Assembly (NCBI GenBank): GCA_009760855.2
Contig: WPIO01000326.1
Coordinates: 1 to 64,000 of the forward strand
From: Cristatella mucedo
Taxonomy: Eukaryota > Bryozoa > Phylactolaemata > Cristatellidae
Length of the DNA stretch: 64,000 nucleotides
Reading direction: 5' to 3'
Shown here: positions 31,201 to 37,200 of the stretch, piece after piece
How positions within the stretch are numbered: position 1 is the first letter of the stretch
Layout of the letters: each line of letters starts with the position of its first letter
Translations under genes and position numbers: made by a program
Notes under the pieces: generated by a model
What the model was told of the DNA's origin: nothing
The model's database searches: none
The model's input: only the letters and a program-made list of their open reading frames with translations

Positions 31201-34200
31201 GGGTGCAAAGGAACTGAAGGCACGATTCCCAAATAATTTGTGGTTCGTTAGAGGCATAGTTAAACGACTAGTGTCAAATGCACAAGTCGTGCAATGGGAA
31301 ACCCAATTAGGAAGTGCAGAAAGCGACAATATGCTGTGCTCCCTCTAGTCTAGTCAGTACGGTGAACTCACTATGACAATGCTTAAACAACGACATCTAA
31401 CCGTCATGTGCTGATACTGCCATACTAGTCACTTGTTGGACTGCCCTCCCGACTCAGCTATGCTTCTCACTTTCTCTTCATTGTGTGAGATGGAAGTCTT
31501 TTGGCTAGCGAATGCATTCCGAAAGCAGCACAGGTTTTGAGTGCACCACAGAACATTCTTGCCTAACACCCACTCAGTCCTTGTGACTTTTGTGGAGTTA
31601 CAGACGAAAATGCATTACACTACACTACCGCTAAAGCAGTGGCCGTGGCAATACACAGCAAAGCCTGCGAAGGCATCACATCACTGCGCCACTCGCTGCT
31701 ACAAACGAGCGAGCGGCCGAAGTGGGAAAACTTGAGTCGAAGAATAGAAAATGACAGATCGCCATGCAACAGGAGGCAGAGCTCTTTATTTTTTCTTTAA
31801 CCAATGGAGCCGCAAAGAAGACCTAGGGCGAGACGTACGCTCGATGAGAAGCAGACCGAGGTCAGCTCAAGGTCAGCTCGAGCCTGTGTGTGTGTGTGTG
31901 TGTGTGTGTGTGTGTGTGTGTGTGTGTGTGTGTGTGTGTGTGTGTGTGTGTGTGTGTGTGTGTGTGCATCTCCGTCAGTAACTCCACAAAGTCATAAAGA
32001 CCATGTGGGTGTTACGCAGGAGAGTTTTGTATAGCGCACTCACAGCCTAAGCGGCTTTCGGTACGCATTCGGTAGCCAACAGACTTCGTCTCACGCAACA
32101 AACAGAAAGTGGGAAGCATAGCAGAGTTAGGAGAGCAGTTGAAGTAGTGAGTAGCATAGAAGTAGCAGTTCAGGACCGCAGAAAAAGATGTGCCATAGTC
32201 GGCAGTTGGAGAGTAGATGTCGTTGCGTAAGAATTGTGGAAGCGAGTTCCACAGTCTAGGACCTGCAGAGCTAGAGCTTCTGTCGCCAACTGTCTTTAAG
32301 CAGAGGAATGAGACAGCTAATTTATTGTCCACACAGGACCTGAGGGCGCGAACCGGCTGAAACTGATGCAGCAGTTCAGCTAGGTACGAAGGAGCCAAGC
32401 CGTGGCGGGCCTTGTGGGTCAGCGTAAGAACTTTGCTCTGTATCCTTTGTTCAACCGGCAACCATCCTAGCTCTTTCAGCAAAGGTGACACGTGCTCAAA
32501 CCGCTGGGACTTGAAGAACAGCCTTGCAGCCATATTCATAGTCCGCTGTAGTGGCATAATAGCTTTCTTTGGCAGCCCAGCCAAAAGGGAATTACAATAA
32601 TCAAGCCGAGACAGAACTAAAGAGCTAGTTAAATTTTTTACAAGCCACTGTGGGAGACAGCTTCTAATCTTGGATAGGGATCGGATGTGATGGCTATCTG
32701 TAGAGGCAGTCTTCTGAATGAAGCTTTTGAAATTGAGGCAGCTGTCGAACACGACACCTAGATTACGAGCACGCTCGGCCCTCAGCGATTAGCTTCGTGC
32801 TGCCCTTTCAGAGAGAACGACGTCGCCACCTTCGATGTGAACATGGGATGCCCAAAGTCATTCTCTGTCTTGGTACGTGCCAGCTTGATCAGCATGACAA
32901 CCCGTGCTGCAGTACATAGCACTAGATTACGATTACGAGCTCGAGCCAACAGTGAGTGATTGGAGCAGGCAGGGGAGGAAGGGGGGCATGAATCCAGATG
33001 CATACTTGGCTATCACCGGAATTTTATGTACAGATTCGACGACCCTGGCTATGACATCGACGCGGTTGGCATGCTGCGGCCGCTCATCACGCGTGCGCCC
33101 GTGAACGGCAAGTGCCGACACGCCCGTCTCCTCGATTAACTTGCACAGCGCCAGCGTGGCATCCAAGTCCGGCAGGACGCGTATCTTGCACGTCACCGGG
33201 ATGCTGAGGTTCTGAACAAGAGTGGAGAGAATCTGCGAAAAGAAAGACGAAAAAAGAGTGCCGAAAGCGTGGACAGCACGAAAGCAGGCAGCCAGGCAGC
33301 AGTCATCTTCCGCGGGCGTCGGCATCACACGGTCTGACCTCGAAACACTGACGTCTTGATAGGCGCCGCAGAGTAAAGCTTTGCGAAGCACAAGTGCCGA
33401 TCACCACAGCAATGCTTTGCGAGGCACGACCGAGGTGCTTCCTTGCCGAGCTGTCATCAACTGGAGCTGCCCAGGTGGAGCAGGGCAGTGCGCAGTGCTC
33501 GGCAGCTGAGGCCGGCTGCATGCAGCATTGCCTTGCACGGCTCGAGGCCAGCCTAGGTGGTGCTCACGGCTCACCCCTCAACGTCCATTGCACCTTCTTT
33601 GCTAAACTGATCACGTCAAAGCAAGACATCCATGCGCTCCTTTGAAGGCGGAGAATAGGCGTGGCCACGGCTTTGGCTGGATTTTGAAATGCCTTGCCGG
33701 TGACAGCAATAAACCACACAGTTCAGAGAGAGAGAGAGAGAGAGAGAGAGAGAGAGAGAGAGAGAGAGAGAGAGAGAGAGAGAGAGAGAGAGAGAGAGAG
33801 AGAGAGAGAGGAGAGAGAGAGAGAGAGAGAGAGAGAGAGAGAGAGAGAGAGAGAGAGAGAGAGAGAGAGAGAGAGAGAGAGAGAGAGAGAGAGAGAGACA
33901 GAGAGAGAGAGAGAGACAGAGAGAGAAAGAGAGAGACAGAGACAGACAGACAGACAGAGACAGACACAGAGAGAGACAAAGACAGAGACAGACAGAGTGA
34001 GAGAGAGATGAAAAAATGCATTTACAGCAACGCCCTAGCAAGGAGACTTTGCTGAACGGGCCTTACCTCTTTTACCTTCTCTGGTTGAGTCAGCAATGCC
34101 GATCCCATGCCACCCTGCTCAACGAGATGCAGAGGCAGTGAGTGCAGACAATAAGGACATGAGAAGATAATAGTGAAGCCACATCCTCAGAAACAAGACA

Positions 34201-37200
34201 ACAGTCACATGGGGGTTTGGAGAGCGGCAGCGCTTGTGCCGATATAATAGCTACACATGGCAGACGATAGCAGAAAGTCAATGGTCAGACTTCCCGCGAG
34301 CTCAGCAGTGGTGGCACTGCAGCACGGGTTGTCATGCTGATCAAGCTGGCACGTACCAAGACAGAGAATGACTTTGGGCATCCCATGTTCACATCGAAGG
34401 CGGCGACGTCGGTCTCTCTGAAAGGGCAGCACGAAGCTAATCGCTGAGGGCCGAGCGTGCGAGTGCACGGCGGTATGAAAGAACTAGACGTGCAGCCCAC
34501 CAGCAACGACAAAGCTTCGGCGCCTCTATTTAAGCGCCTCTACTTAAGTGTAGGGGGGGTGTTACGGCAAAGTGGCACCGAAAACACGGCTGATAAAAGT
34601 GAAATATGTAAGAGATCATCTGTCATACTCGGTTCGGCAGACCAGTCGCTGTGACCCGTGCGTGAAGCTGGTCATGCAGCACGGCACTTCGCAGCAGTGC
34701 AGGAGCGTCAGTGACTACCGGCACCTAGCAACTAGCAGCGTGGCGCGACCACACGCAAGACGACAGCGCAGCGCTCGTCCGGTCGGTCTGCTCTTCCCAG
34801 CGCTTGCACACCAAGTACAACACACGTGGTTTTGGCCTAGGCAGTAGTGTTACTGGGCGGTGGGTGGGGTGTGTTCTGATGCTTGCCCACCCACCTATGC
34901 TTCTGAGAAGGGTATACAAGAGCACGATTGCCCAAGGCTTTCTTCTTGCAGGCAGCACATCAAAAAACGGTCGCACTCACTACATTGCTTTTCTCTCATC
35001 TGCCATCTGCCCAATCTCCTCGACGATGGTAGGGGGCCGTTGCTTCGGAGTACAAATTGCATTCGCTTTGCACCCGCTTAGGCTGCAAATGCTTCGCTTG
35101 GGAGACTGCAAGCTTGGGCAACAGCTGCTGCACAGCAAAGTGCACGCGCACGCACACACACACATGCACATATACACACATGCACACACACGCACCCACG
35201 CACACACAAACACACACCTACCTATCTTCGTGCACCATTCTAACCGTAAAACCGTCAGTCGTTAGCAAGTTAGCAAGCACCAGTCTACGCCGGCTTTTTG
35301 CTCTCTGCCCCGAGCCCCTGCCCTCTGGCCCAAGTCCCATCACCCCCCCTACCCTTCACTAGCTGCCCAATACTCGGCCCTTGTCGTCAAGAGCAACTGC
35401 ACGCAGCATTGCTAACGACTGTTGGTAAGTGCACGTTTTGCCTCATGCAACCACTGACAGCGCTCATGGCCAATTAATCCGTAGGCTGTTTTGTTCGAGG
35501 CTCACGTGACCGCATAAGTCATCCTCTAAGCAAGTGCCAGCTGCAGTAGTCACACTGACGACTCAGTCAGGCTGTCGCCGAGACCAAGTCAGGCAAAGGG
35601 GGAGTGGCTTCTTCTTGTTCAGTCTCCAAGCGAAAGGCTGCATGGATCCCCAAGCGAGCGCCAAACAGCTTGAGCACTGACAATCTTTCCCGAGCAAAAG
35701 GCCAGACTTTTACCTCTGCATTGACAGTACGCTCAGATTCTACGCCCATTCTATAGACTTCTGTAGGCCAGCATCCATCAACCGACATGTGAACCAGAAG
35801 CCATCTAACCAAGCACAGCTCCGAGTGCATAGTAGCCTCGTGCGCACACGCGCACACACACACGCACGCGCACACACGCACACACAAAGACCGAACGTTA
35901 GACTGAGAAAGGCAAGCTGCCGGCCTGCGCTACCGGCAAAAGAGCATTTGCACGACGATAAGAATGGTTTCTACACTGCCTGCAGCAGTATTCGTTCTAC
36001 TAAGCTTAAACATGCAAGTCAGTCCTCGGCCCTGTGCACCAATCTCGACTAAAAAGAAAGAAGGAATTGCTTGATAATTGAGAAGTTTGATGCCACAAAC
36101 CAAATGCCCATTACATTCGACAGCACCTGATGGGTTCCACCAGTACGACAAACCCAGATACAAAAAAAGGAAAACGGTTCAACACTTAAGATAATCATGC
36201 AGCGCACAAGTCTTGGGCAGCAAGGCCAACTCCGACCCTGAGCCGACTGAGAAGCGCCGGTGGAAGCACAGCAGGCAAACAGACAGATTTGATATGCTTT
36301 TTTGTCGTCGGGTGCGCAAAGACAGAGAATGCTGCTGACTGCTCCAACTAAAATCAGACATCTTCCCCTTGCTGTAGAGCTGATGATGGCGAACTAAATC
36401 GCCATTTACAAATCAGCACGACTCCCTACGCAGGCCATTAAACTCGGGAGGGTGAGCCAGCTCCTATTGCAGTAAGGATGCGTGCCCTAATAATGTGCAC
36501 CTAATAACATTAGGCTGCAAACCGAATGAGCGCACGAGACATACTCACACCATCTTTGCAGCCTGGAGAGCTCGCTGTGCATCACATGTCCCCTGCAAGA
36601 ATAATCCCGATGAGACTGATAAAGATTCATTCACATGTGAGCTCAACTGCACGAATTATTTACCATATGCACGATCACGTCACTATAAAGGCATGCCAAT
36701 GCATGGAGTCATCGAAGGGCTACAGGCGATCTCTATCACTCACAAGGTGACTGCGCCGCAGCTGGTGGCACACACGGGCAGGCACAGCTCCGAGGCAGAA
36801 TGAAGCAAACAGGACAGAACGAATTTGCAGCAACCAATGCACACTAAGAATGTCACACAGTGTGTTACGTGCTAATATCACAGACCAAGCACAACAGGGT
36901 TAGCTTATTTAAAGGCCGATTTAAATAGCAACAGAAAAACCTTAACGGCTATTACTACTGCTTGCAGCAGGCAATAGGGGATCGCCCACTGATTCGAACC
37001 AACGACCTGGGCCGTGAAGAGCAAGCACCCTACTCCTGGGCTAAGATAAACCTGCCATAAGTATAAGTATAAGATAAGTCTACCTAATGCTTACACCATC
37101 ACACATAGCTTAGGCTCTCTTAGTAATTTAGTCCTAAAGTTGCGGGCTCTTCATTGGGGAGATATATTTGCCCCCTCCTCTGCTGTTGTCTGTCTGTATG

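Follow-up and report, generated by a model that had tools for sequence, protein, structure and literature searches.

Exons flanked by inverted repeats may form circular RNAs or be edited. The locus described here lies in a stretch of 64,000 nt from the bryozoan Cristatella mucedo (GenBank assembly GCA_009760855.2, contig WPIO01000326.1, positions 1 to 64,000; hereafter the window), in which two complementary arms stand around exons 6 and 7 of the gene DUS2 within one pre-mRNA. It shares this arrangement with the inverted-repeat-flanked exons, but differs from them in that one of the arms holds an exon with its splice sites and not intron alone, and in that it is known here from sequence. The other arm is an inverted copy of that exon, DUS2 exon 5, and adjoins the end of a long interspersed element (LINE).

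The 5' junctions of LINEs can hold extra nucleotides copied from flanking genomic or LINE DNA (PMC4245944, PMC4760211). Such 5' extra nucleotides (5' EX) have been described together with an annealing pathway for the zebrafish elements ZfL2-1 and ZfL2-2 and for human L1 in HeLa cells (PMC4245944, PMC4760211, PMC2666801). In the available parts of these three accounts, 5' EX have in common with the present locus a 5'-truncated LINE, extra nucleotides between LINE and target that come from flanking and LINE DNA, and short overlaps. The published junctions contain several extra nucleotides, whereas the present one contains 163 nt, of which 139 nt are an inverted copy, from about 1.5 kb away, of a coding exon with both splice sites, and no like case of long inverted exonic filler was found in the same parts of those accounts. 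Templated nucleotides at LINE 5' junctions are already published; the present junction differs in being long, inverted and exonic. Among the titles and abstract beginnings listed from the openly licensed literature, no matching case was found of junction filler copied from nearby DNA or of inverted exon copies.

The other close precedent is found at double-strand breaks. Fold-back inverted insertions at yeast breaks range from 2 to ~150 bp, and most of them are shorter than 14 bp, according to the available part of the source (PMC11724301). As in these insertions and in the templated ones of polymerase theta end joining, an inverted local copy is joined by microhomology in the present locus. 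However, the break would here be a LINE integration intermediate, and the loop measures 1.4 kb instead of the tens of nucleotides given in the available text. The junction has marks of both LINE 5' EX and fold-back insertions, and its scar is compatible with polymerase-theta end joining. As a natural scar, it indicates that the joining step of a LINE can give a gene a long and almost exact inverted copy of one of its own exons and create a possible RNA hairpin in one step. Exon-masking hairpins, circular RNAs and double-stranded RNA of ordinary genes could plausibly originate in this way.

The inverted exon copy and the LINE that carries it

The host gene was identified as DUS2 on the minus strand. 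Its joined exon translations, the join being approximate, match human tRNA-dihydrouridine(20) synthase with an E value of 1.6e-65 and the Pfam Dus family with 2.9e-38; exon numbers follow those of the initial annotation. That annotation had reported a 143-bp inverted match to the exon 5 region with two differences, both coding and non-synonymous. Our alignment agrees with it on all these points and extends the match by two more matching bases at the outer end, to arms of 145 nt each that are 99% complementary (98.6% identity) and separated by 1402 nt. Exactly two differences were found, both within exon 5 sequence and both changing an amino acid: the copy has Asn where the exon has Thr at the first site, and Thr where the exon has Ala at the second, while human DUS2 has Asn and Gly, respectively. 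The inverted copy starts at nucleotide 93 of the intron after exon 7, and hence exons 6 and 7 are flanked by the arms. The alignment and the exon borders also uphold the earlier statement that the arms lie in opposite orientation in one transcription unit, with both exon 5 splice sites inside an arm and exons 6 and 7 looped out. When the window was compared with itself (low-complexity filter on; 96 pairs with E values of 1e-6 or less, of which the best 40 by identity were examined), the arm pair was the only repeat above 95% identity, the runner-up reaching 93.4%. A chance match over 145 nt at 98.6%, the best of the 96 pairs, is therefore ruled out.

Read from its sequence context, the inverted exon copy fills the 5' junction of a truncated LINE that lies in the intron following exon 7, a setting which the initial annotation had missed. 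A query with positions 32700-32980 against the 572-Mb assembly gave 40 scored matches out of 47 candidates, namely both arms of the window plus 38 further loci that match 32700-32774 alone, at 96-100% identity and all ending at 32774. Over the whole of 31965-32774, six fetched family copies (L003 to L008) are 96-97% identical to the focal LINE with no or one gap opening, and L003 aligns gaplessly at 97%. Of 26 fetched family copies, 24 have further LINE sequence beyond the position that corresponds to 32774, where the focal copy switches to DUS2; the continuation is GGTGAAGGTCGCAC or a variant of it in 23 of them, and L012 continues after an internal gap. A reverse-transcriptase domain (RVT_1) was found in L005, in two parts in adjacent frames. 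Since most fetched family copies extend past 32774 and L005 possesses this domain, position 32774 is taken as the truncated 5' end of the LINE. Pfam and PDB searches with the focal fragment alone returned no match; the domain of L005 lies upstream of that part. Protein motifs of the family look L2/CR1-like, which makes this group a candidate affiliation. An Rfam scan of the window at the gathering threshold gave no match. The two fetched copies that do not run on, L007 and L019, end at positions 810 and 811 of the LINE reference, and the focal copy ends at 810, as if reverse transcription had halted there.

The junction itself is composite (Table 1). On the plus strand, the order is AGCTCGAGCC, the (TG)n tail, the 810-nt 3' part of the LINE, a GCACGC overlap, the exon copy, 8 nt, two scraps of the LINE end, and AGCTCGAGCC again. 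At the switch point, the LINE reads ...CTAGATTACGA GCACGC GGTG... and DUS2 reads ...GCACTC GCACGC TCGG..., so that the 6-bp GCACGC, the first six of the 145 nt, belongs to both. The extra nucleotides between LINE end and target (32775-32937) include, besides the DUS2 part, LINE-end copies of 11 and 10 nt. Overlaps at the joins consist of GCACGC between LINE and exon and of the 3-bp AGC between LINE scrap and target. The window contains AGCTCGAGCC at two places, immediately beyond the tail and immediately beyond the filler. The evidence that the pair represents a target-site duplication is only moderate, as AGC is common to the LINE end.

Table 1. Features of the DUS2 locus and of the LINE insertion, in window positions.
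Feature	Position	Strand	Remarks
Left copy of 10-bp repeat AGCTCGAGCC	31875..31884	+	directly outside (TG)n tail
(TG)n tail of LINE, 80 nt	31885..31964	+	many other family copies have (TGTAA)n or (TGTCA)n on the plus strand
LINE 3' part, 810 nt	31965..32774	-	ORF end (after the reverse-transcriptase domain) and following sequence; truncated 5' end at 32774; from family alignments
Inverted exon 5 copy	32769..32913	+	32769-32774 (GCACGC) common to LINE; 32775-32913 (139 nt) DUS2 only
8 nt ACATAGCA	32914..32921	+	between exon copy and LINE scraps
Second copy of LINE end CTAGATTACGA, 11 nt	32922..32932	+	LINE reference 794-804
Third copy of LINE end GATTACGAGC, 10 nt	32931..32940	+	LINE reference 797-806
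Right copy of 10-bp repeat AGCTCGAGCC	32938..32947	+	read as target-site duplication; AGC also end of last LINE scrap
DUS2 exon 7, 227 nt	33006..33232	-	between arms; gt/ag borders; one match in assembly
DUS2 exon 6, 48 nt	34067..34114	-	between arms; gt/ag borders
Source arm	34316..34460	-	exon 5 plus intron flanks of 43 nt (upstream) and 41 nt (downstream)
DUS2 exon 5, 61 nt	34357..34417	-	encodes ETDVAAFDVNMGCPKSFSVL; gt/ag borders; human DUS2 match; catalytic exon

Origin and age of the junction

Very probably, the structure goes back to one LINE insertion with a truncated 5' end, whose junction filler was copied from DUS2 exon 5 and from the LINE end during joining. A LINE would have inserted by target-primed reverse transcription into the DUS2 intron, 58 nt downstream of the exon 7 donor, and its copy would have broken off within the ORF, at an end point found in two further family copies as well. 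During the joining of this truncated 5' end to the chromosome by a polymerase of the host, of the element or of both, the strand under synthesis may have left its template and re-annealed several times. In this way 139 nt of exon 5 with adjoining intron sequence, taken from a distance of about 1.5 kb, would have been copied inverted via the 6-bp GCACGC overlap, 8 nt would have been gained, the last nucleotides of the LINE would have been copied again twice, and the product would have been sealed onto the target through the 3-bp AGC overlap. The outcome would be a single insertion of 1053 nt in which an exon of the host gene is present as an almost exact inverted copy. The observed part of this explanation consists of the junction anatomy, the overlaps, the LINE identity, the matching divergence and the finding of no further exon copy; target priming, a single event, the copying strand and polymerase, and a neutral or mildly harmful outcome make up its putative part.

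Copying could have proceeded in either of two directions. The LINE cDNA end may have primed on the DUS2 plus strand; or the 3' end of the target minus strand may have primed on the LINE cDNA, slipped, copied the DUS2 minus strand or the pre-mRNA, and re-annealed at GCACGC. Both directions fit the junction, and the data do not separate them. A pre-mRNA template for the first (antisense) cDNA strand was rejected, as it would give the other orientation; for the second strand, such a template is conceivable. It is conceivable, if unlikely, that during the LINE insertion the second strand, being synthesised from the target end, switched to nascent DUS2 pre-mRNA that was still unspliced and took exon 5 from it by reverse copying, and that the hairpin thus formed today reduces the inclusion of exon 5 or gives rise to a circle of exons 6 and 7. 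The orientation fits, the inserted second strand being antisense to the pre-mRNA, and the intron edges are kept in the copy; a DNA template fits equally well.

The LINE provides an independent clock for the exon copy. Relative to the majority of 21 copies, the focal LINE has six private changes in 810 nt, and the arms have two differences in 290 nt; these rates do not differ (Fisher P = 1, with few changes to count). Since the private divergence of the LINE equals that of the arms, we infer that LINE and exon copy arose in one recent event. Of the earlier proposal that the arms are either recent or maintained by gene conversion, the recency stands; gene conversion is not needed, because the high arm identity is accounted for by an equally young LINE. 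At the first differing site, the Asn in the copy and in human DUS2 suggests that the working exon, which now has Thr, changed after copying. The second site (Ala in the exon, Thr in the copy, Gly in human) does not decide which arm changed.

Several observations weigh against an origin in one recent insertion with templated filler. Seven further changes of the focal LINE are common to at least one other copy, so that its age is uncertain, and no more than two substitutions are available for dating the exon copy. The focal (TG)n tail differs from the usual tail of the family. No overlap was seen at the join of the exon copy and the 8 nt, and no convincing source was found for ACATAGCA, the partial matches of 9-10 nt elsewhere in the window being taken for chance. 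As to the putative target-site duplication, three bases (AGC) of the 10-bp repeat also belong to the LINE end. In a survey of 29 other family copies, 5 of them without a testable flank, the 24 testable copies have an exact flanking repeat of 10 bp once, of 9 bp four times and of 8 bp four times, and 15 have none of at least 8 bp; by our own arithmetic, these counts are about what chance would give. Filler of this kind is also not a habit of the family. We searched 3.4-5.7 kb of 5' flank in 20 copies for a local copy of at least 90% identity with its start no farther than 45 nt from the LINE end (E value of 1e-3 or less), a procedure that detected the focal window as positive control. Four of these copies reach the end of the 2310-nt reference and are not assessable, and a near-identical local copy at the 5' junction was found in none of the other 16. 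Three of the 16 (L072, L076 and L078) have local matches of 75-82%, taken as old dispersed repeats. The 20 copies are the best-matching of 39 non-focal copies scored, from 1372 candidates, and the result is not a frequency for the whole family.

A history in two steps has also to be considered. A clean LINE insertion, ending at the AGC overlap with the target, might have been followed by a later break at the junction, repaired with a templated insertion of exon 5 by which CTAGATTACGA was duplicated on both sides. The presence of CTAGATTACGA on both sides of the exon copy is what a fill-in of staggered ends would leave, and a LINE-AGC-target joint would be a normal annealed junction. However, this history demands that an unrelated break fell within ~15 bp of the LINE end, a point at which two more copies of the family stop, and that the four bases ACGC after the break match the own continuation of the LINE by chance. 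The equal age of LINE and exon copy, though with wide error, is a further point against it, and we regard it as improbable.

Predicted duplex in the DUS2 pre-mRNA

The initial annotation had proposed that the unspliced RNA can form a duplex over exon 5, which is borne out as a prediction. In the minimum-energy fold of the pre-mRNA from 34700 to 32600, the exon arm pairs with the copy at 144 of its 145 bases; five controls with a shuffled copy gave 0, 0, 7, 0 and 0 such bases. The fold energy is -831 kcal/mol versus -629 to -641 kcal/mol in the five controls. The sequence implies a C-U mismatch at one position of the duplex and a G-U pair at another. Before transcription of the antisense arm, the predicted mean pairing is 0.68 at the exon 5 acceptor, 0.64 in the exon and 0.67 at the donor; with that arm present, the three values become 1.0, 0.98 and 1.0. 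A pre-mRNA duplex of ~145 bp can, in this model, hide exon 5 once the copy has been transcribed. The antisense arm is made 1.4 kb after exon 5, and splicing of exon 5 may therefore come first; it would then escape the duplex. Loss of exon 5 (61 nt) would shift the reading frame, and loss of exons 5 to 7 together (336 nt) would preserve it. The consequences put forward in the initial annotation, namely hiding of exon 5, back-splicing, A-to-I editing and entry into small-RNA pathways, would be candidate effects of the predicted duplex.

These folds, with the near-complete pairing of the arm and of both exon 5 splice sites, are also what would be expected of a regulatory element kept under selection, in which the hairpin hides exon 5, promotes a circle of exons 6 and 7 (275 nt) or is edited. 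However, the high identity of the arms is accounted for by their youth, the LINE being equally young, and a regulatory element is judged very improbable. Most likely, the insertion is a scar with a neutral or mildly harmful effect. The predicted loop includes a GA-rich microsatellite (33724-34010, nearly 290 bp), which lies in the DUS2 intron between exons 6 and 7.

Assembly searches and other LINE copies

The contig is just 84.9 kb long in all, and an inverted copy produced by a read chimera would be one possible artefact of its assembly. But the copy has its own substitution, begins at a 6-bp microhomology, and ends at LINE scraps and a target repeat, which are unexpected from misassembly. 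Among the scored matches of the assembly search, exon 5 sequence was found only in the two places of the window, and exon 7 has a single match; no second allele was thus found that could have been mis-joined. Misassembly in the form of a read chimera is very unlikely. Transduction, by which the LINE lineage would have captured the exon elsewhere and brought it along, could account for the location of the copy at the 5' side of the element, but it can practically be dismissed, as none of the other 38 scored matches has the exon copy and the copy matches the local exon including its intron edges. A LINE family that carries the exon is ruled out within the limits of the same search.

Recurrent 5' ends were observed elsewhere in the LINE family. 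In addition to the end at reference positions 810-811 in L007, L019 and the focal copy, ends recur at 470 (L042 and L048), at 270 (L031 and L038) and at 330-331 (L034 and L035), and the internal gap of L012 likewise begins after 470. The recurrent ends could be stop sites of the reverse transcriptase or fixed subfamilies. L007 is inserted into an older member of its own family, remnants of which flank it on either side. An older inverted copy (~76%) of the same LINE 3' end, at 31403-31599, adjoins the focal insertion in the same intron. A second, related LINE is present in the window in two 1.5-kb copies (27798-29287 and 55343-56848) that are 92% identical, the first of which has a reverse-transcriptase domain.

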